Origin: a virus
Virus record (IMG/VR): IMGVR_UViG_3300036761_000877
Location: 1 to 42,319 of that record
Length of the DNA: 42,319 bases
Reading direction: 5' to 3' (one strand)
Positions 10,054 through 33,241 of this stretch are shown piece after piece. The notes under the pieces were generated by a model that saw only the letters and a list, made by a program, of their open reading frames with translations, did not search any database and was not told the DNA's origin. Position 1 is the stretch's first letter; the number at the start of each line of letters is the position of its first letter. A program made the position numbers and the translations under genes.

Positions 10054-11784
10054 TTGCGGAAATTCCTGAAGCCGTTCTTGGTTGCACTCGCGCTGTTCCC
10101 TCTGGCTACCCTCGGGCAAGCGGTAGGCTCGGGCCACATCGATATCAGTCTCAGTGACACGGCGGATACCTTCACAGCCACCGCTCCTAGCGGGACCGCG
10201 GGCGTCTCGCTGTCTCACAACGGCGCTCGGCTGGACGTCGGAGAGGGCGCCTCGGACTACTTCTCCAGCGACGGCACCACCATCACCACCCCAGGAGCTT
10301 TCGCGGCTACGGGCGGGATTACTGGGGCGGTTACTGGGAATGCCGCTACCGCTACGGCGCTGGCGGCGGACCCCACGGACTGTTCTTCAGGCGAGTACGC
10401 CACGACCATCGCGGCAAGCGGTAACCTCACCTGTGCCACCCTCTCCGGGGCCCTGGCCGGAAACGCGTCTACCGCGACGGCGCTGGCGGCGAACCCTACG
10501 GATTGCGGCGCGGGCGAGTACGCCACAACCATCGCGGCGAGCGGTAACCTCACATGCGCCACCCTCTCGGGAGCCCTGGCGGGTAATGCCAGCACCGCGA
10601 CGGCGCTGGCGGCGAACCCTACGGATTGCGGCGCGGGCGAGTACGCCACAACCATCGCGGCGAGCGGTAACCTCACGTGCGCCACCCTCTCGGGAGCCCT
10701 GGCGGGCAATGCCAGCACCGCTACGGCGCTGGCGGCGGACCCAACAGATTGCAGCGCGGGCGCGTACGCCACGACCATCGCGGCTAGCGGTAATCTCACC
10801 TGCGCTACGGTGGCTGTAGGAGAGGTCACCGGCGCCGCGCCGCTTGCAACTCCCACGTTCACCACGTCGGCCACGGTCCAAGGCTCCGCCTCTGTGAACG
10901 GGGTCACCTCCACGGCGCTGGCTACCCCCGTAAACTCGGCGTTCTCTCAGACGGATACGGGCGGCACCCTGCTCGACTCGACTACGTACTACTACCGAGT
11001 CGTGGCTACCACAGCCGCGGGCGGGGTAACCTTGCCGAGTACCGAGACCAGTCGAGCCACCAGTGGAAGTGGAGGTAACGCGCACACCGTGGTGACCAAC
11101 TGGGCCGCGGTTACCGGCGCCTACTCCTACAAGGTGTACTGCCGAGCGACCAGCGCGGAGCAACTATGTGCCACGATCGCGGCTCCTACACTGACCTGGA
11201 CGGATACAGGGGCCGTGTCCCCCTCGGGAGCCCTGCCGACTCTGAACACCACCGGGCGACTATCCGCGCCGTACTTGGTTATAGACGCCCCGGCGACGAC
11301 CTCTCCGTTTTCCGTCAAGATTAACGGTACCGCCAAATTGTCCATGGATACTGGGGGCGGCATCCTTACCGGAAGTACGGTCACCATAGGAAATGGCGTA
11401 CTCGAAGCAAATACGGCGACCCAGTTACTCCTTCGAGGAAACACCGCCGCCACCGGGGGCAGTGTGGCGATCACGAACGGCACCACCGTGACCAGCGGTA
11501 TGATCGCCACCTTCTCTCCAGACAGTAATGTGACCCCAGTTTTCGGCGTCTACTTCGACGGCTCAATACGGCTTAAGATCGTGCCTGCTCTAGCCACCTG
11601 CGCGGCCGGCATCGAAGGACTTATAACCCGGCAGAAAGGCCTCGTCTCCGGGGTCCGTACCACGCTTTGTATGTGTACCAGTGATGGTGGCGGCACACCG
11701 GCGTACGCCTGGAAGAACGTTACGGCGCTGTTCCCCAATGAAGCCGCGTCGATTGGCGACTCCACCACCTGCCCGACGCCATAA
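10054..11784 (+). CDS. Repeat-rich tail fibre / adhesin with signal peptide
   Basis: The 576-aa product starts at TTG with a strong GAGGAGG site ten bases after the tailspike stop. Residues 1-23 form a signal peptide (MRKFLK, hydrophobic core, cleavage near LGQA). Residues about 100-252 are four copies of a 41-aa repeat built on a TDC..GEYATTIAASGNLTC pattern, with two cysteines each. A fibronectin-III-like segment follows at about 270-390 (TYYYRVVATTAAGG, then YSYKVYC), then beta-rich sequence. A compact cysteine-containing tip domain ends the protein (C516, C539, C541, C573; TPAYAWKNV, NEAAS, STTCP). This tip is shared with the protein at 15513-15839. Its place after the tailspike and before the lysis genes, and its repeats, point to a receptor-binding fibre. 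Export is inferred from the signal peptide. Confidence 0.75.
   Translation: MRKFLKPFLVALALFPLATLGQAVGSGHIDISLSDTADTFTATAPSGTAGVSLSHNGARLDVGEGASDYFSSDGTTITTPGAFAATGGITGAVTGNAATATALAADPTDCSSGEYATTIAASGNLTCATLSGALAGNASTATALAANPTDCGAGEYATTIAASGNLTCATLSGALAGNASTATALAANPTDCGAGEYATTIAASGNLTCATLSGALAGNASTATALAADPTDCSAGAYATTIAASGNLTCATVAVGEVTGAAPLATPTFTTSATVQGSASVNGVTSTALATPVNSAFSQTDTGGTLLDSTTYYYRVVATTAAGGVTLPSTETSRATSGSGGNAHTVVTNWAAVTGAYSYKVYCRATSAEQLCATIAAPTLTWTDTGAVSPSGALPTLNTTGRLSAPYLVIDAPATTSPFSVKINGTAKLSMDTGGGILTGSTVTIGNGVLEANTATQLLLRGNTAATGGSVAITNGTTVTSGMIATFSPDSNVTPVFGVYFDGSIRLKIVPALATCAAGIEGLITRQKGLVSGVRTTLCMCTSDGGGTPAYAWKNVTALFPNEAASIGDSTTCPTP
10354..10809 (+). repeat. Tandem 123-bp repeats in the fibre gene
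   Basis: The unit beginning acggcgctggcggcg occurs at 10354, 10477, 10600 and 10723, exactly 123 bp apart, so each copy adds 41 codons in frame. Copies 2 and 3 are nearly identical at the base level and the outer copies are more diverged, as expected for recent internal duplication. The final copy is truncated where the sequence changes near 10809. Confidence 0.95.
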
Positions 11785-11794
11785 GGAGACTCCA

Positions 11795-12232
11795 ATGCTC
11801 AAAACAGTGCTCGCCGTACTGACTCTGCTCGTCGCGACCCCCAGTTACTCCGCTTGTGTCTGGTCCGCTACGACTACCTGGAGCGCCAAAGTAGTCTGCG
11901 ACTCCGGCACCGAAGCTGCCCCAACACTCATCACCGAAGGAATCTCCCTAGTGAATCTTCGGTCGTTGTCGATCTCCATGGTGGCTGATAGCGGCCAGAC
12001 GTTCACGGCGGCCCCCGCTGGGATGCTGTGGTTCTACGTCTGGGACGATGTCGCGGAGATGTGGATCCACTCCACAGACTTCGACCGTCGTGTGACGAAC
12101 GCTTCGGAGCGCACCCAGGGCTTCACCGGTTTGTCTATCATTGGGCCCCGTGGAGGCCGGGTAGCCGTCCGGCCTGTCGGTATTTCTTTGAGTAGTGGGA
12201 AGGTCACCGTCTACTTGAACGGCCAATCATGA
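11795..12232 (+). CDS. Small signal-peptide-bearing beta-rich protein, probable tail-tip accessory
   Basis: The 145-aa product starts at ATG 11795 after AAGGAGACTCCA; an upstream in-frame start would overlap the fibre gene and lacks this site. Residues 1-19 are a signal peptide (MLKTVLAVLTLLVA, cleavage near PSYS/A). The mature part begins with ACVWSA and has only one other cysteine (VVCDSG), which could pair with it. The rest is beta-rich, with WFYVWDD, GPRGGRVAVRPVG and a final VTVYLNGQS. The pattern resembles small beta-sandwich proteins often found near phage fibres, but I do not recognise a named family. It lies between the fibre and the lysin, overlapping the lysin start as ATGA. A structural or chaperone role is inference. 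Confidence 0.7.
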   Translation: MLKTVLAVLTLLVATPSYSACVWSATTTWSAKVVCDSGTEAAPTLITEGISLVNLRSLSISMVADSGQTFTAAPAGMLWFYVWDDVAEMWIHSTDFDRRVTNASERTQGFTGLSIIGPRGGRVAVRPVGISLSSGKVTVYLNGQS

Positions 12233-12597
12233 CCCCGATGTTTACCTACCGGCAGCGTTCCGGCGAGCTCCTACGTGAAGGGGTAGTGGTCGGCACGGGG
12301 TACTCCGGCCGCGAGCTTGGAAAGAACAACCCCAGTTTCCAAGGCGTCAAAAACACGGGCCCTATCCCTCGGGGCCTGTGGCATATCGTCGGCCCACCCT
12401 TCACCGGTCACGGTCCTTACGTGCTCAGACTGGTACCCGGGAACAACACCGAGACCTTCGATAGGTCCGGGTTCCTCATCCATGGGGACTCACTACAGAA
12501 ACCGGGTACGGCCTCCCAAGGGTGCATCGTCCTGCCCCGGCATGTCCGAGAGCTGGTGTGGGCCAGCGGCGGAAAGGAGCTGGAGGTGGTAGAATGA
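12229..12597 (+). CDS. Putative endolysin, L,D-transpeptidase/Tlde1-like (DUF2778) fold
   Basis: The 122-aa product has the L,D-transpeptidase-like active-site pattern: H85-G-D in FLIHGDS and S96-Q-G-C99 in GTASQGCIVLP. GPIPRGLW lies in the N-terminal half, as in Tlde1/DUF2778 proteins. Related proteins act on the peptide stems of peptidoglycan, some as cutting enzymes in type VI secretion toxins. Here it is the only cell-wall enzyme candidate visible and lies directly upstream of two membrane protein genes, so a lysin role is likely. It has no signal peptide and would need a holin to reach the wall. Its start overlaps the previous stop (ATGA) and its end overlaps the next start, so the three genes are translationally coupled. 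Which bond it cuts cannot be told from sequence. Confidence 0.7.
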   Translation: MTPMFTYRQRSGELLREGVVVGTGYSGRELGKNNPSFQGVKNTGPIPRGLWHIVGPPFTGHGPYVLRLVPGNNTETFDRSGFLIHGDSLQKPGTASQGCIVLPRHVRELVWASGGKELEVVE

Positions 12598-19890: not shown

Positions 19891-20220
19891 TTATGACACC
19901 GTAGAGTCAGGGGCGGCGACTGGGGAAGTCTTCGTAGCTGGAACCTTCTTGGCCGGGGACTTCTTGGCCGGGGACTTCTTGGCCGGGGACTTCTTGGCCG
20001 GGGACTTCTTGGCCGGGGACTTCTTGGCCGGGGACTTCTTGGCCGGGGACGTAGCCTCGGCGCGGGTTTTCAGAACCGCCGCGTGCCGCTTGAGCGCGTT
20101 GTGCCGAGAGATCCCCATCCGGATAATCCGGTCAAGCGCCGCCTCTACAGAACAACCCTGCCGCGCGGCCAGCTCCTCCATCGGACCACGAAGGTCGTCC
20201 TGGAGTTCGATCTTTGCCAT
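19891..20220 (-). CDS. DNA-binding protein with histone H1-like SPAKK tail
   Basis: The 109-aa product starts at ATG 20220 with AAGGAG upstream. Residues 1-52 resemble a short strand plus two helices ([17 protein letters not shown], then [20 protein letters not shown]), compatible with a ribbon-helix-helix-type DNA-binding fold. Residues 58-92 are seven perfect SPAKK repeats, then [12 protein letters not shown]-type repeats in histone H1 and sea-urchin histones bind the minor groove of AT-rich DNA, and bacterial AlgP-like proteins have comparable tails. I infer a phage nucleoid protein, helping to compact replicating or packaged DNA, or to silence host DNA. It lies between the primase side genes and the SSB-like gene. 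Confidence 0.7.
19945..20049 (-). repeat. Seven 15-bp repeats encoding SPAKK
   Basis: The plus-strand unit ttggccggggacttc (SPAKK in the gene strand) is repeated seven times without a base change in its core. Perfect identity between units means recent expansion by slippage or recombination, so copy number is likely to vary between isolates. Confidence 0.95.
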
Positions 20221-20280
20221 TTGTACACTCCTTGTTACTGGGTAGGTATTGAGCCTAGCACACGAACTTGATCGGCGCAA

Positions 20281-25045: not shown

Positions 25046-25372
25046 TTAGGGGTCACAGTCAGAGCACGAGGCACCTCCATCTTTGGTCTCCATGGCCTTC
25101 CGTAATCGATCCTGAGCCTCTGTCGCCGAGATTTTCGCGGCTATCACGGCGCACTTCGTTTTTTCAACCGCCTCTAGCGCGGCCATGTACAGGTCGGCAT
25201 TATATCTGTCGTTGATCGCCTCGCGGGCCGCAACGTACGTATTGTGGGCTTTTTCGGCAGCTGCATCTCGGGCCGCCAGGGCCGCCGTCAGGGTCGCGTC
25301 GCGCGCAATCAGTGCGGTCATTTGGGCCGCGTCGTACTGCGCGCGGGCCGCTTGGGCCGCGTCACTCGGCAT
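25046..25372 (-). CDS. Ala-rich helical repeat protein
   Basis: The 108-aa product starts at ATG 25372 (AAGGAGACTCCA upstream, the same leader as the gene at 11795). Nearly the whole chain is Ala-rich helix (MPSDAAQAARAQYDAAQMTA, then LAARDAAAEKAHNTY). The end is acidic with CSDC. Its opening DAAQAAR shares 23 identical bases (25343-25365) with the 149-aa gene (28366-28388), so the two share a DNA module. A coiled-coil or bundle structure is likely; function unknown. Confidence 0.65.
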   Translation of the reverse strand: MPSDAAQAARAQYDAAQMTALIARDATLTAALAARDAAAEKAHNTYVAAREAINDRYNADLYMAALEAVEKTKCAVIAAKISATEAQDRLRKAMETKDGGASCSDCDP

Positions 25373-25721
25373 TGGAGTCTCCTTTGTTATGTGCCTCTAG
25401 GACTGGTAGTGGGGCTGCGTCAGGGTGGTAGTCCCTGAGAAACTCCTCCGCTAGCTCACGCAGCGGAGCGAGTGCGGCTACGATGGCCGGGTCCTGATGC
25501 AGCTGGCACACCGCGTGGTAAATGAGCTGCAAACTCAGGTGCCTATCCAGGATCGCCCGCGTGCCTCCACAGGACAGGGGCCAGCTGGCGTAGTCCAGGT
25601 CGGCCCGTCTGAGGTCGGCCCGTCTGAGGTCGGCCCGTCTGAGGTTGGCCCGTCTGAGGTCGGCCCTTGTACCGGTTTCCGCCGCGCGCCGTAGTTCTTG
25701 CCACATTTCATCCCACGTCAT
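25362..25721 (-). CDS. Pentapeptide-repeat protein (short repeat block)
   Basis: The 119-aa product starts at ATG 25721 with AAGGAT upstream. After a helical start it has about six pentapeptides (ADLRRANLRRADLRRADLRR), coded by five 15-bp units at 25598-25672. The second half is a helical domain (IAALAPLRELAEEFLRDYH). Pentapeptide repeats fold as a right-handed quadrilateral beta-helix; long ones such as Qnr/MfpA mimic DNA and block gyrase. This one is too short for a full DNA-mimic and may only bind its neighbour. It lies next to a longer pentapeptide-repeat gene. Confidence 0.8.
   Translation of the reverse strand: MTWDEMWQELRRAAETGTRADLRRANLRRADLRRADLRRADLDYASWPLSCGGTRAILDRHLSLQLIYHAVCQLHQDPAIVAALAPLRELAEEFLRDYHPDAAPLPVLEAHNKGDSNAE
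25598..25672 (-). repeat. Five 15-bp repeats in the pentapeptide gene
   Basis: The plus-strand unit ggtcggcccgtctga occurs in tandem, with the fourth copy carrying one change (ggttgg) and the fifth degenerate. Each copy encodes one ADLRR-type pentapeptide, so the beta-helix length can grow or shrink without a frameshift. Confidence 0.9.
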
Positions 25722-25723
25722 TT

Positions 25724-26119
25724 TTATCCTTTCGTTCCCGTTACGTAGGCCCGCGTGGACTCGATTCCGTAGAGGTCCGCGTCCGTGAAGTCGGCCCCGG
25801 CAAAGTCGGCCCCACTAACGCGCGCCCAGCGTAGGAGCGCAAACTGGAAGTCCGCCCCCGTAGCAGCAGCTCCGGATAAATCTGCCTCCGAAAGGTCCGC
25901 CCAGCGGAAGTTCGCCCTGTGGAGGTCCGCTTTGTGGAACTTAACTCCGTGGAGGTTCGCCCTGCGGAAGTTAGCCCCAGTGAAATTAGCCCCAGTGAAA
26001 TCGAGCCCGTGTAGGTCTAACCCTCGGAAGTCCCTCCCAGGGAGGTACAGCGGACTTTGACGGGCCACAGACTGGGCTACAGCTATGATAAGACCATTTC
26101 TGGTTTCTGTGCGCGCCAT
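25724..26119 (-). CDS. Pentapeptide-repeat protein (beta-helix, possible DNA mimic)
   Basis: The 131-aa product starts at ATG 26119 with GGAGTAAACGA upstream. From about residue 28 to 120 nearly every fifth residue is Leu or Phe in an A(D/N)(L/F)xx pattern (GLDFTGANFTGANFRRANLH, then ADLSEADLSG, then ADFAGADFTDADLYG). This gives about 18 pentapeptides, four to five coils of a quadrilateral beta-helix. MfpA/Qnr proteins of this fold bind gyrase as DNA mimics. A phage could use it to protect or redirect host gyrase, but many such proteins have other roles. It is roughly half the usual Qnr length. Confidence 0.85.
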   Translation of the reverse strand: MARTETRNGLIIAVAQSVARQSPLYLPGRDFRGLDLHGLDFTGANFTGANFRRANLHGVKFHKADLHRANFRWADLSEADLSGAAATGADFQFALLRWARVSGADFAGADFTDADLYGIESTRAYVTGTKG

Positions 26120-26228
26120 TCGTTTACTCCGGTGGGTACAGAGCTATGATCCCCTGGACCAGCAGGACCAGGACAAGTACTACCAATACGCAGTCATCAT
26201 TCCATGGCATTCGTTTACTCCGGTGGGT
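26117..26228. repeat. 91-bp-spaced direct repeat around the mini membrane-protein genes
   Basis: cattcgtttactccggtggg plus one more t is present at 26117-26137 and 26208-26228. The following bases are also related (agagctat, ggaccagc, aggaccaa/g), so a unit of about 91 bp was duplicated. Each copy contains the end of one mini-gene plus the ribosome site and ATG of the next gene. Confidence 0.85.
26124..26210 (-). CDS. 28-aa single-helix membrane peptide
   Basis: This open frame starts at ATG 26210, with GGAGTAAACGA upstream, and stops at TAA 26124. The product is MPWNDDC followed by a hydrophobic run VLVVLVLVLLVQGIIALY and PPE. It parallels the next gene upstream (26215-26304), and the two share the 91-bp duplication. 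Its stop codon overlaps the ribosome site of the pentapeptide gene, so it may also act as a leader that couples translation. Too short for routine gene finders. Confidence 0.6.
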   Translation of the reverse strand: MPWNDDCVLVVLVLVLLVQGIIALYPPE

Positions 26229-26304
26229 GAAGAGCTATCTGGACCAGCGACCCCAGGACCAAGACCAGCGCTACTAGTATGCAAACCTCGTTTACACCCG
26301 GCAT
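26215..26304 (-). CDS. 29-aa single-helix membrane peptide
   Basis: The gene starts at ATG 26304, sharing bases with the stop of the 49-aa gene (TGATG), and ends with the same GGAGTAA as its copy. The product is MPGVNEVC, then ILVALVLVLGSLVQIAL, then HPPE. The overall plan (MP, acidic residue, Cys, helix, PPE) is identical to that of the 28-aa peptide. Tiny membrane peptides in phage early regions can inhibit host envelope enzymes or other phages, but no specific target is evident. Confidence 0.6.
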   Translation of the reverse strand: MPGVNEVCILVALVLVLGSLVQIALHPPE

Positions 26305-26453
26305 CACTGCCTCCGTAGTATTTCCAGAAACGTGTGAGGTCTCGGCCCTAGCCCGTACCACAAGCTCACCAACAAGACCCGAAACCCGTACTCCCGAACC
26401 AGTATAACCGGATGAGCCAGTACGTGACGCGTGGTGATTACGCCTATCAGCAT
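26304..26453 (-). CDS. 49-aa membrane-associated peptide
   Basis: The gene starts at ATG 26453 with AAAGGAGCGGCC; a longer in-frame start would overlap the previous gene and lacks a site. The product has a moderately hydrophobic N-terminus (MLIGVITTRHVLAHPVILV) and a second hydrophobic stretch (FRVLLVSLWYGLG), then a basic end. It probably sits at the membrane. It is the first of three small hydrophobic genes in a row. Confidence 0.5.
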   Translation of the reverse strand: MLIGVITTRHVLAHPVILVREYGFRVLLVSLWYGLGPRPHTFLEILRRQ

Positions 26454-26464
26454 GGCCGCTCCTT

Positions 26465-26974
26465 TTACAGCACCTCGATACGCTCTTCTCGAAGCCAAAA
26501 AATCGTCTCGCGGCCCGGGCCTCCAGTTGGCATGTGGCCACCCCGCCGCTCACCGTCTAGGTACAGGTCCAAGGCGTACATGGTACTGTTCGAGCCGCGC
26601 ACCATGCTGTCATACGCCTGTCTCGCTACACTCTCATTCGGGAAGTAGTACCGAATCGAGCCGTGAAGTTTGTGCTCGACCAAAATAAAGCAATCCGTAG
26701 GCTCGAACTGGGCCTCCGCCGCACGAGTCGCAGGGCCTCGGAGCTGATTATGGAGCCGCCCCTCGGGCAGCTTCTCCAGCAAGTACCGCGTGCAAGCCGG
26801 CCCCAGCGTCCACACCCACTCCTGTCGAAGCTGCCCACTCTGACCAGGATTTACCGCCCGCCCGTACAGCTCCGGTCGACTCCGCCAGTCTGCCCAGCCC
26901 CAAATCGCCTCTTTCGTGTGAATCGAGTCGGTCTTGATGACCACGTTACTTCCAACCGCTTCCACCGTTGTCAT
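26465..26974 (-). CDS. Hypothetical protein, 169 aa
   Basis: The gene starts at ATG 26974 with GAGG seven bases upstream; an upstream TTG in frame would lie at the 3' end of the tRNA. The product is mixed alpha/beta, Trp-rich near residues 25-60 (AIWGWADWRS, then QEWVWTLGPACTRYLLEKLP), with a C-terminal half ending IFWLREERIEVL. No motif recognised. It lies directly downstream of the tRNA in the same transcript. Confidence 0.65.
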   Translation of the reverse strand: MTTVEAVGSNVVIKTDSIHTKEAIWGWADWRSRPELYGRAVNPGQSGQLRQEWVWTLGPACTRYLLEKLPEGRLHNQLRGPATRAAEAQFEPTDCFILVEHKLHGSIRYYFPNESVARQAYDSMVRGSNSTMYALDLYLDGERRGGHMPTGGPGRETIFWLREERIEVL

Positions 26975-27000: not shown

Positions 27001-27071
27001 AGCCGGAGCCCAGAATCGAACTGGGGCCTCCCGTTTACAAGACGGGGGCTCTACCACTGAGCTACTCCGGC
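27001..27071 (-). tRNA. tRNA-Thr (anticodon TGT)
   Basis: The minus strand folds as a full cloverleaf. The acceptor GCCGGAG/CTCCGGC is 7 bp, the D arm GCTC-AGTGGTA-GAGC, and the anticodon arm CCCGT-CTTGTAA-ACGGG with anticodon TGT. The variable loop is AGGC and the T arm CCCAG-TTCGATT-CTGGG. The discriminator base is T and CCA is not encoded. G1-C72 and C2-G71 fit threonine identity. A short stem AACGG/CCGTT (27072-27087) lies just upstream and could help processing from the operon transcript. Confidence 0.95.
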
Positions 27072-28023: not shown

Positions 28024-28473
28024 CTACAGTGTGGGGATACCGAGCGCCTCGCACGCGGCAATGTAGTTGTATGCCTCAAGAGCATTGTCGTACTCAGCGA
28101 TAACCGCGTGGTACTCCGCGGTAGCCGCACGGAAGCTTTCGAGAGCTGCATTGTGCTCGGCGACCGCCCTGTCGTAGTTGGTAGACTCCCTAGCCCTGTC
28201 AAGCTTGGTCTCGGCCCGGTCGTATTCCAGGCCAACTACGTGGCACTTATCTTGGGCCTCGTCACGATTGCATAACGCCTCATGGTACGTCTTGCGCGCC
28301 GCGTAGTATTTGTCACGGGCTACGTTTGCCGAGTCACACGCTAGGTCGTATGTGGCCTCGGCGCTGCGGGCCGCTTGGGCCGCGTCACACACCCTGTCAC
28401 GGGCCGCGTTGTACTCGGCAAGGGCTGTGTTACGAACTTCCGCTAGGTCGATGAGCTGTTTTGTCGTCATCAT
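28024..28473 (-). CDS. Long Ala/Tyr-rich helical repeat protein
   Basis: The 149-aa product starts at the ATG pair at 28473/28470 with GAGGGTC upstream. It is one continuous helix with near-heptad Ala and Tyr spacing (LAEYNAARDRVCDAAQAARS, then YDLACDSANVARDKYYAARK, then AEYHAVIAEYDNALEAYNYI). Part of it (ETKLDRARESTNYDRAVA) is identical to part of the 75-aa gene product at 28831. A separate part (DAAQAAR) is shared with the 25046 gene. It seems to be assembled from modules found singly in its neighbours. A coiled coil or a helical bundle is likely. Function unknown. Confidence 0.7.
   Translation of the reverse strand: MMTTKQLIDLAEVRNTALAEYNAARDRVCDAAQAARSAEATYDLACDSANVARDKYYAARKTYHEALCNRDEAQDKCHVVGLEYDRAETKLDRARESTNYDRAVAEHNAALESFRAATAEYHAVIAEYDNALEAYNYIAACEALGIPTL
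28166..28216 (-). repeat. 51-bp exact direct repeat, copy 1
   Basis: Bases 28166-28216 are identical to 28916-28966, 750 bp away. The repeat lies in the same reading frame in both genes and encodes ETKLDRARESTNYDRA (plus flanking residues). Identity at every base including silent positions means the copy is recent or kept alike by recombination. Confidence 0.95.
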
Positions 28474-28834: not shown

Positions 28835-29058
28835 AAGTCCTCCGGTATAGACACGCCCGCCAGGTCCTGCGTATTGCTTGCGACGGTCGTGTTGACTTCC
28901 TTGAAGTATGCTACGGCCCTGTCGTAGTTGGTAGACTCCCTAGCCCTGTCAAGCTTGGTCTCGGCCTCTGTGTGCAACGCGCGGAGCTTCTCCAAGTTTT
29001 CCTCCGCGTTGCTGAGAATAACTGCTAACGCGATCTGGCTCGAGAGCGATACGTACAT
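28831..29058 (-). CDS. Helical protein sharing a module with the 149-aa gene
   Basis: The 75-aa product starts at ATG 29058 with TTGGAGGCCCACA. It is helical throughout (AVILSNAEENLEKLRALHTE, then the shared ETKLDRARESTNYDRAVA) and ends in a short acidic tail. The shared part is base-identical to 28166-28216. The ribosome site lies inside a potential hairpin (29061-29110). Function unknown. Confidence 0.65.
   Translation of the reverse strand: MYVSLSSQIALAVILSNAEENLEKLRALHTEAETKLDRARESTNYDRAVAYFKEVNTTVASNTQDLAGVSIPEDL
28916..28966 (-). repeat. 51-bp exact direct repeat, copy 2
   Basis: This is the partner of 28166-28216, with sequence diverging at once on both sides. The pattern fits transfer of a short coding module between two neighbouring genes rather than duplication of a whole gene. 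Confidence 0.95.
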
Positions 29059-30895: not shown

Positions 30896-31611
30896 GCCGG
30901 AAACTCCCCCTCCCTAGGGCGAGCCGAGCAAAGAAACCCGCGACCGGAAAGCTAGGAGATGCCCCCGTCGGATGCGTAGCTCGTTGCCAAGGGGCCGACC
31001 ACGCCCGGGGCTGTGCTACCTACGACAAACTCTTAGTGCAGGCTCGAAAAGAACCGACCAGAGACGAGCCGAGGAGGGACCCCCGAGAACGTTCCAGCAA
31101 AGCCACGGTGGAATATGTAGGGGGGCCCGGGCAGACGATTGACCCCAGACTCAATCCAGGCCCCGATATGATCCGACAGTCAAAGTTCTTGGAGACCACG
31201 CGCTCGTTCGTACTGCCGCAGTCGGTGATGCGTGCGCTAGAAGTGCTCAAAGAACAAAACTTCCGGGTCCGAAAGGAGTTGGAACAGGACCCCGCCATGT
31301 GTGGCGCCGTGAAAGAACTGGCCGGGTTCTCTCTGGAGCGATTGGTATTCATAGCTGCCGGCAAGGTTCACAAGAGTAAAGCAGCTGCTATGCTGAAGGC
31401 ATCGGCGATCCTACGCCAGGAGACCTGTGAACCGCTGGTGACGAAGACCGAGATCGACGCATCTTTGTCCCTGGCGAACATGGTGGCGGCCGCAACCGCA
31501 CAGAACACCCCGAGCATGAAAACAGCCGAGCAGGCTTTAACTCTCATGAGGGCGGAAAAGGAGGACGACCATCGGATCGCGGTGCTGAAGGGAGAATGCG
31601 AGGATGCGTAA
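30892..31611 (+). CDS. Putative terminase small subunit
   Basis: The 239-aa product starts at ATG 30892 with AAGGTAACTCG. The N-terminal 100 residues are basic and Pro-rich; the remainder is helical (FVLPQSVMRALEVLKEQNFR, then AGFSLERLVFIAAGKVHKSK, then ILRQETCEPLVTKTEIDASL). It lies just before and overlaps the large terminase by eight bases, the usual place for the DNA-recognising small subunit. No sequence motif proves this; the call is from position and helical make-up. Confidence 0.6.
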   Translation: MSRKLPLPRASRAKKPATGKLGDAPVGCVARCQGADHARGCATYDKLLVQARKEPTRDEPRRDPRERSSKATVEYVGGPGQTIDPRLNPGPDMIRQSKFLETTRSFVLPQSVMRALEVLKEQNFRVRKELEQDPAMCGAVKELAGFSLERLVFIAAGKVHKSKAAAMLKASAILRQETCEPLVTKTEIDASLSLANMVAAATAQNTPSMKTAEQALTLMRAEKEDDHRIAVLKGECEDA

Positions 31612-33241
31612 GGCGCCGCGCGCCAAGCGGACCGAACGGCCCGCCCGGTCCGTATCCTTAGTTGACTGGCAGTTGACGAATTCCCGCGCCAAAGAAGCTG
31701 CAACACCACCCGCAGTATCCCCCACCCCGGGCTCGACCGTGGCCGTAACGCCGGTCGAGTCTGAGTTTGAAGTCGCGGTGAGGAACTTGGCGCGGTGGCA
31801 GCGTGACCCCGTGGCTTTCGTACGGGAGGTCTTCGGCGCTGAGCCCGACGACTGGCAGCTCGACGCGCTTAACGCGATGGCCCGGGGAAATTTTCTTGTG
31901 TGCATGAAAGCATGCAAGGGCCCCGGGAAATCCTGTCTACTGGCGTGGGCGATATGGTGGTTCTTGCTGTGCTTCGAGTCGGCTAAGATTCTGGTGACTT
32001 CGATCACCGCGGAGAACCTACGCGACAACCTGTGGGCCGAACTGGCCATGTGGCGTGGCAAGAGCAAGCTCCTCCAAGCCGTGTTCGAGACGCAGAGCGA
32101 GAAAATCTACGCTCGGGAGGCGCCCGAGACTTGGTTCGCTGCTGCAAGAACCTGGCCAAAAGATGCGGACAAGACCAAACAGGCTACGACTCTCGCGGGG
32201 CACCACGCGAAGAACACGATGATTGTCCTGGACGAGGCGGGAGGCATCCCGGTAGGGGTCCTGGCTGCCGGGCTGGCTCACCACGCAACGCAGGGGACGG
32301 GGACCGAAGTCCACTATACCCTCATGGCCGGAAACCCCGACACGCTCGACAGCGCGCTCGGGTGGGCCTGCACCGAGGACTCGGCTAACTGGTGGGTGAA
32401 AGAGATCACCGGGGACCCCGACGACCCTCGACGGGCCAAGCGCATAGATAAGCAGTGGGCGCTGGGGCAAATCGAGAAATTCGGGCGGGACAACCCATGG
32501 ATCTTGGTTAACATCTTCGGGAAGTTCCCACCGGTGGCACATGACCGGATACTCGGGCCGGACCAGGTTCGAGCGGCGATGGAGATATCGATCCCGGACC
32601 AACTGTGGATGCGGCATCCTCGGGTAATGGGCGTGGACGTGGCGCGGTCCTTGGAGCGTAACCGGTCCGTGTTGGCACGTAGGCAGGGGCCCGTAGTGTT
32701 CCCGTTCCTGGTCTACCGGTTCGACGACTTGGAGGTACTGAGCAACCAAATCGCGTTCGAGTTCGCCCGGTGGCCCGCGAGGTTGATTGTCGTCGACATG
32801 ATGGGAGTAGGTGGCGGAGTCCTGGACCATTTACGGGCGATCGGGCTTCCCGCCGTGGGGTTCAACGGCTCACTCCCCGCAAGAGATAGTAAGTTCCAAG
32901 ATCGAAGAACTGAGACATACTGGGCGTGTAGACAGATGGTCCTTGGGCATAACAAGGTGCCCACGATTTCACTACCTAATATGCCGGAGCTGGTGGCGGA
33001 GCTCACGTGTCTGAAGTTGGAGTGGAACCGTAAAGGCCAAATACGCGTAGAGTCGAAGACCAAGGCGGAAGAACGGGGAGTCGTGAGTCCTGATATCGCG
33101 GATGCGCTTACGATGACCTTCGCGGAGCCGACCCAGGCCGAGCCCGATCGGTACACACCGGAGAGTACCCGCCGAGCATTACATGAGATTGACCAAGAAG
33201 ACCGATCGTTTCAGTCCATGGACAAGGAGATGTCCGCATGA
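31604..33241 (+). CDS. terL: Terminase large subunit
   Basis: The 545-aa packaging motor has an ATPase with Walker A KACKGPGKS (102-110), Walker B MIVLDE (206-211) and the coupling motif MAGNP. An RNase H-type nuclease domain follows, with acidic residues D345 (VMGVDVARS), D398 (LIVVDMMGVGG) and DIADALTM near residue 500. It pumps DNA into the prohead and cuts the concatemer. The start at ATG 31604 overlaps the small subunit gene. A Pro/Thr-rich N-terminal extension of about 50 residues precedes the ATPase. Confidence 0.93.
   Translation: MRKAPRAKRTERPARSVSLVDWQLTNSRAKEAATPPAVSPTPGSTVAVTPVESEFEVAVRNLARWQRDPVAFVREVFGAEPDDWQLDALNAMARGNFLVCMKACKGPGKSCLLAWAIWWFLLCFESAKILVTSITAENLRDNLWAELAMWRGKSKLLQAVFETQSEKIYAREAPETWFAAARTWPKDADKTKQATTLAGHHAKNTMIVLDEAGGIPVGVLAAGLAHHATQGTGTEVHYTLMAGNPDTLDSALGWACTEDSANWWVKEITGDPDDPRRAKRIDKQWALGQIEKFGRDNPWILVNIFGKFPPVAHDRILGPDQVRAAMEISIPDQLWMRHPRVMGVDVARSLERNRSVLARRQGPVVFPFLVYRFDDLEVLSNQIAFEFARWPARLIVVDMMGVGGGVLDHLRAIGLPAVGFNGSLPARDSKFQDRRTETYWACRQMVLGHNKVPTISLPNMPELVAELTCLKLEWNRKGQIRVESKTKAEERGVVSPDIADALTMTFAEPTQAEPDRYTPESTRRALHEIDQEDRSFQSMDKEMSA

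Follow-up and report, generated by a model that had tools for sequence, protein, structure and literature searches.

The locus considered here raises the question of whether two tandem frames for peptides of 28 and 29 residues in a phage genome are genuine genes, selected for the membrane peptides that they would encode. It lies in a record of 42,319 bases from an uncultured, podovirus-like phage; the entire record was analyzed and is referred to below as the window, and its hallmark genes encode a podovirus-type head-tail adaptor, a major head protein, two tail proteins, DNA polymerase, helicase, and primase. Elsewhere in the window, a terminase-like 545-aa protein (31604-33241, plus strand) has as its sole PHROG match phrog_5902, the function of which is unknown (1.8e-23); a protein with several near-identical repeats of ~40 residues (10054-11784, plus strand) is probably a tail fiber; and a 129-aa ORF (19891-20280, minus strand) ends in a run of SPAKK repeats, which we take to resemble a histone H1-like tail. 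The two short frames, denoted pep1 and pep2, are located in a minus-strand block of small genes that also contains a tRNA-Thr (anticodon tgt; 27001-27071, minus strand). Genes this short are usually omitted from phage annotation.

Two Adjacent Frames for Short Hydrophobic Peptides

An earlier note on this DNA had placed two adjacent frames at 26124-26304, and these were recovered at exactly those coordinates, on the minus strand, with lengths of 28-29 residues. The following features were delineated from the ORFs, Shine-Dalgarno (SD) energy, hydropathy, and codon score or, for the ribosome site, from sequence and duplex energy:

26215-26304, minus strand: pep1, gene for a putative 29-aa single-helix peptide, MPGVNEVCILVALVLVLGSLVQIALHPPE
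26124-26210, minus strand: pep2, gene for a putative 28-aa single-helix peptide, MPWNDDCVLVVLVLVLLVQGIIALYPPE
26310-26314, minus strand: GGAGG ribosome site of pep1, within the 3' end of a 49-aa ORF

Both frames start with ATG, and their translations follow the described plan, MP-acidic-C-hydrophobic-PPE. Each is also preceded by a ribosome site, as had been asserted: the GGAGG of pep1 has a duplex energy of -9.5 kcal/mol, and the GGAG of pep2, at 26218-26221, has one of -6.1 kcal/mol. The 15-residue mean hydropathy is 3.17 in pep1 and 3.29 in pep2; each peptide, shorter than 50 residues, has one helix-length stretch of strong hydrophobicity, the coding DNA of which is composed of short GTC/CTG repeats. 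The peptides are acidic and contain no K or R residues, so that their topology is unreadable from charge.

To assess these features against chance, we counted ATG/GTG frames of 18-60 aa in which the mean hydropathy over 15 residues reached 2.2 or more and the SD energy was -5 or lower. Three start sites in the 42-kb window passed this cut, namely, two alternative starts of pep1 and that of pep2; no other micro-ORF in the window thus joins strong hydrophobicity to a ribosome site. By comparison, 30 first-order Markov controls yielded a mean of 0.3 passing start sites (maximum 2), and an adjacent tandem pair of such micro-ORFs appeared in 0 of the 30. The codon scores of pep1 and pep2 (0.094 and 0.186 bits per codon, respectively) are gene-like, within the range of genes, given that 28-codon pieces of larger genes score 0.236 (SD 0.14) and wrong frames between -0.07 and -0.30. 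On the strength of these sequence features, the two frames are very likely to be translated, and it appears equally likely that their products insert in a membrane.

A Duplicated Gene Junction

The repeat with a spacing of 91 bp that the earlier note had reported corresponds to a 31-nt direct repeat, with copies 94% identical, that covers the ends and starts of successive genes:

26208-26238, minus strand: junction repeat copy A, comprising the end of pep1, the GGAG site (26218-26221), TAA, and the start of pep2
26117-26147, minus strand: junction repeat copy B, comprising the end of pep2, a GGAG site (26127-26130), TAA, and the start of the pentapeptide gene

The repeat thus constitutes a stop/ribosome-site/start gene junction that consists of the PPE codons, GGAG, TAA, four bases, and the next ATG, with CCACCGGAGTAAACGAATG closing one gene (PPE and stop) while also supplying both the ribosome site and the start of the following gene; CACCGGAGTAAACGAATG is present in both junctions. 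An 18-nt core of the junction occurs twice in the window, with no other occurrence at up to three mismatches, whereas 0.02 are expected from shuffles. Because the PPE codons contain the GGAG site, the PPE tail common to both peptides may result, at least in part, from the presence of this site. Measured from the start codon to just before the next start, the duplicated unit spans 94 nt in pep1 and 91 nt in pep2, and the peptide bodies outside the junction are far more diverged between the copies than the 31-nt junction itself.

Probable Protein-Level Selection on the Two Copies

Global alignment of pep1 with pep2 yielded a score of 66, compared with a mean of -5 for the shuffled peptide; none of 5,000 shuffles scored as high, and only 1 of 5,000 did when shuffling was confined within tail, helix, and tail, so that, judging by the alignment, the two copies are homologous. 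In the plain codon alignment, 27 of 84 columns differ (8, 7, and 12 differences at codon positions 1, 2, and 3, respectively), with 11 residue changes versus 15.5 expected under random placement of the same substitutions (P = 0.007 for reaching so low a number without a stop codon). With the helix shifted by 6 nt, 16 of 78 columns differ (5, 2, and 9 by codon position), with 6 residue changes versus 9.6 expected (P = 0.016). Random placement introduced an in-frame stop codon in 40-53% of the trials, whereas both real frames are intact. The corresponding dS/dN values are 0.51/0.25 for the plain alignment and about 0.45-0.46/0.11 for the shifted one, and, among the six frames compared in the shifted alignment, the proposed frame showed both the highest dS and the lowest dN. 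This synonymous bias is modest, coming from one pair with 16-27 differences in which hydrophobic GTN/CTN codons make third-position change cheap.

The earlier argument from duplication to a selected function is sustained in part. The duplication is real and is accompanied by protein-level constraint, but by itself it says little about function, given the other local duplications in the same gene block. Nevertheless, the two copies can be compared with each other, and this comparison, which needs no relative, speaks for selection at the protein level. Given the homology of the copies, the synonymous bias, and the gene-like codon usage, pep1 and pep2 are probably real, selected genes.

Search for Relatives

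Neither PHROGs nor Pfam contained a family matching pep1 or pep2 at E values up to 1, a weak test given the very short queries, and a tblastn search of 50,697 phage records with pep1 (E up to 10) found no relative, also a weak test because low-complexity masking was on. Among 83 loci searched by tblastn, the sole foreign match of pep1, in L058 (33% identity, E = 0.52), was poor and was not counted. A two-sequence profile run against 44,177 stop-to-stop frames of 97 loci, from which the locus representing the window itself (L081) was excluded, detected no accepted relative; the best hits, in L090 and L095 (E = 0.036), were rejected because they had been admitted via a degenerate pattern and are antisense to a coding frame. 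Four pattern searches matched 6 (L090 and L095 included), 1, 2, and 2 loci, and the other matches were frames without the plan of the peptides. The same profile found no relative in 4,387 frames of 16 loci, 6 of which were already part of the 97-locus search, and pep1 had no match in 26 whole records in a search run without a positive control.

Searches with the primase, terminase, portal, 169-aa ORF, and the pentapeptide-repeat protein PRP131 (see below) revealed no close phage relative covering the stretch. The primase query retained 80 loci of 140, the best of which (L001, 50% identity) is on a contig that stops short of the region; the terminase query yielded 3 loci (34-43%) and the portal query 10 (34-52%), whereas the 169-aa ORF (168 residues queried) yielded no locus and PRP131 none that was confirmed. 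Cultured relatives are about 40% identical in the primase, and the three examined gave no peptide match. Since no homologue was found, there is no independent conservation of pep1 or pep2 to draw on. No paper on such a tandem peptide pair was met in the literature searched, from which we do not claim that none exists.

We also surveyed the 80 primase-query loci (1.35 Mb) for strongly hydrophobic micro-ORFs of 18-45 aa that start with ATG behind a strong ribosome site. Lone single-helix micro-ORFs of this kind numbered 41, in 30 of the 80 loci, compared with 4, 2, 5, 5, and 2 in Markov controls. With the strict threshold, the 80 loci contained no adjacent pair; when it was relaxed, adjacent pairs emerged in 7 loci, 5 of them distinct (L022-L024 are near-copies), with members that, judged by eye, are not copies of each other. 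Several of these pairs overlap by 4 nt, among them those at 12807-13121 of L010, 6242-6520 of L022, and 10039-10224 of L060, all unrelated in sequence to pep1 and pep2; the profile search likewise detected no sequence relation between the micro-ORFs of related phages and the two peptides. Thus, related phages commonly encode lone or neighboring single-helix peptides, and what sets pep1 and pep2 apart is their tandem duplication; the micro-ORF count suggests a wider, poorly annotated class.

A Closely Spaced Gene Series

pep1 and pep2 occupy the middle of a minus-strand series, the other members of which are as follows, in 5' to 3' order on that strand:

26465-26974, minus strand: 169-aa ORF upstream in the same series; the ATG start was chosen, and a longer version from a TTG start at 27001 is possible
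26304-26453, minus strand: 49-aa ORF, MLIGVITTRHVLAHPVILVREYGFRVLLVSLWYGLGPRPHTFLEILRRQ, with an AAAGGAG SD site (-7.9 kcal/mol), a gap of -1 nt to pep1, and a weak codon score of 0.026
25724-26119, minus strand: PRP131, pentapeptide-repeat protein directly 3' of pep2 (PF00805, 1.9e-25), with an SD energy of -6.1 kcal/mol
25362-25721, minus strand: PRP119, the second such protein, in which the pentapeptide-repeat stretch is short (PF00805, 1.6e-08)

The gaps along the series, which runs 169-aa ORF, 49-aa ORF, pep1, pep2, PRP131, and PRP119, are 11, -1, 4, 4, and 2 nt. The stop codon of the 49-aa ORF overlaps the start of pep1 as TGATG; this ORF, absent from the earlier note, has no match in Pfam and, with its codon score of merely 0.026, is regarded as a candidate gene. 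The 169-aa ORF, with 168 residues queried, has no match in PHROGs or Pfam. PRP131 is predicted to form a beta-helix, with pLDDT of about 87-95 over residues 31-120 in a model built without an alignment; among five models (pLDDT 79.7, 62.1, 37.0, 36.6, and 29.5), the best one alone is confident. Comparison of this model with the PDB retrieved pentapeptide-repeat folds, the best being cyanobacterial and plant pentapeptide proteins. Gyrase protection was considered from the fold alone; MfpA and Qnr rank lower, with low TM-scores, and, therefore, we claim no function for PRP131.

Translational coupling requires short gaps, and overlapping gene pairs are enriched for subunits of complexes, with -4 and -1 nt being the commonest arrangements, according to one report (PMC10666635). 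A 4-nt gap with its own ribosome site differs from these commonest arrangements and fits coupling without proving it. The coupling to the pentapeptide protein proposed in the earlier note is nonetheless in line with the spacing of -1, 4, and 4 nt, which is of the kind expected, and coupling within the series appears fairly likely.

Possible Role of the Peptides and Alternative Explanations

From the computed frames, ribosome sites, homology, synonymous bias, gene-like codon usage, helix-like hydropathy, and spacing, we infer the following course of events. pep1 and pep2 would have arisen by tandem duplication of one 91-nt unit that consists of a peptide gene and its junction. Ribosomes finishing the 49-aa ORF, pep1, and pep2 would restart at the next ATG, at most 4 nt away, so that synthesis of the peptides would accompany that of the pentapeptide protein. 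Each peptide would enter the inner membrane of the host through a single V/L-rich helix, about 18-20 residues long; there, the two might associate as homo- or hetero-oligomers and bind to the bilayer or to a protein of the host membrane, changing its activity. Candidate outcomes are exclusion of a second phage and, while the host is being taken over, an altered transporter, respiratory, or proton-leak function. This reading, a duplicated pair of small, translationally coupled proteins of the inner membrane that act as modulators of the membrane or of a host protein within it, is the one we tentatively favor, while placing it somewhat below an even chance; the modulator role specifically is slightly more doubtful. 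Membrane depolarization, exclusion, and enzyme inhibition had been suggested previously; the constraint and codon usage make it likely that the peptides are selected, and they leave these roles undistinguished. Among the points that weigh against the favored reading are that no result ties the peptides to a particular target and that the best-conserved part of the locus is the junction, which might have been kept for translation alone.

The latter point is the starting point of an alternative according to which the peptides are functionless and their translation feeds ribosomes to the pentapeptide gene, the junction being what was duplicated and kept. The 94% identity of the junctions next to much more diverged bodies, the occurrence of CACCGGAGTAAACGAATG in both, the encoding of the PPE tail by the ribosome site, and the 4-nt gaps all agree with such a relay. 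However, residue changes between the copies are below expectation and hydrophobicity is kept, and one relay would serve as well as two. The RNA folding of the stretch is ordinary compared with shuffles (z = 0.62), for which reason RNA structure or attenuation at the locus was dropped, as was an Rfam RNA, the sole Rfam match being the tRNA. Start-region openness is 0.52 for pep2 and 0.50 for PRP131, compared with 0.35-0.69 for 13 reference starts, so that the pentapeptide start seems to have no need of a relay; the values for the 49-aa ORF (0.31) and pep1 (0.32) are slightly below all 13. On balance, this explanation is unlikely.

Slightly less probable still is that the peptides are toxin-like or depolarizing, of the TisB or Ibs type, and weaken the host membrane for host shut-off or as an auxiliary lysis factor. 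TisB is a cationic toxin, and a TisB-like activity is less likely for peptides devoid of K and R. The size and hydropathy fit, and an antisense RNA is conceivable in principle, as the strand opposite the junction repeat has a promoter-like match at 26123-26150; however, promoter-like matches are near chance frequency (3 found versus 1.9 expected), Rfam has no match opposite pep1/pep2 at this position, and the genes lie within a compact codirected series. YohP, a peptide of similar size, lowers the membrane potential, whereas flanking positive residues are important for membrane interaction in this class, according to the same source (PMC12719787). With respect to lysis, pep1 and pep2 have no family match in PHROGs or Pfam that would assign them as holins and are located away from the candidate lysis genes, a Tlde1/YkuD-domain gene and a weak holin-like match at 12.2-13.4 kb on the plus strand. 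The former (12229-12597, plus strand) encodes a 122-aa protein with a Tlde1 domain (9.7e-12) and a weaker YkuD match, possibly a cell-wall lysis enzyme.

A neutral origin, in which the pair is a young by-product of a fast-changing block with frequent short duplications, possibly translated and without selected function, is a little less probable again. The block does contain other local duplications, namely, a 57-nt direct repeat (28160-28216 and 28910-28966), 96% identical and common to two Ala-rich ORFs of 149 and 75 aa, and four repeats with 15-nt spacing; the lack of detected relatives and the GTC/CTG repeats that encode the helices point in the same direction. Against this account stands the fact that, with 16-27 differences between them, both frames are still open and preceded by ribosome sites, given the frequency of stop codons under random placement. 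An elaboration of the favored reading, in which an acidic hetero-oligomeric pair has the pentapeptide-repeat protein as its cytoplasmic partner, with the helices anchoring or gating the beta-helix protein and blocking a host membrane function or a second phage, is improbable. Finally, we dismiss pep1 as the C-terminal end of a 112-aa frame with a GTG start (26215-26553): the frame is open up to 26553, but its upstream part has a codon score of -0.20, like wrong frames and unlike genes (0.236) or pep1 (0.094), it overlaps the 169-aa and 49-aa ORFs, and the GGAGG site precedes the ATG at 26304.

Comparison with Known Systems

Under the favored reading of pep1 and pep2 as coupled membrane modulators, the closest comparison is with YohP-type small membrane proteins. 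The 27-aa YohP of Escherichia coli inserts via SRP with either SecYEG or YidC (PMC7549839) and, besides its effect on membrane potential, dimerizes (PMC12719787); it provides a precedent, established by experiment, for membrane activity in a peptide this small. The likeness, drawn from features alone, lies in the size class, the single hydrophobic helix, and the near absence of tails, whereas pep1 and pep2 are phage-encoded, duplicated, acidic, devoid of K and R, and part of a closely spaced series.

Other comparisons are by description. The small single-helix type also includes KdpF, CydX, MgtS, and AcrZ, which are about 29-49 aa in length and bind a larger membrane complex; no gene for such a target was identified in the window. 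The type I toxin peptides Ldr and Ibs are likewise very small, hydrophobic, and present in repeated copies; however, they are single genes with an antisense RNA, in contrast to the codirected, close-packed series of pep1 and pep2. The lone micro-ORFs of related phages share the size range of 18-45 aa, the strong ribosome site, and the strong hydropathy, but have no sequence relation to pep1 and pep2, which are tandem copies of each other. Thus, single-helix small membrane peptides are already known as a kind, and pep1 and pep2 are an orphan duplicated pair within it; two similar helices encoded side by side offer a simple case in which to test hetero-oligomeric membrane peptides of phages.
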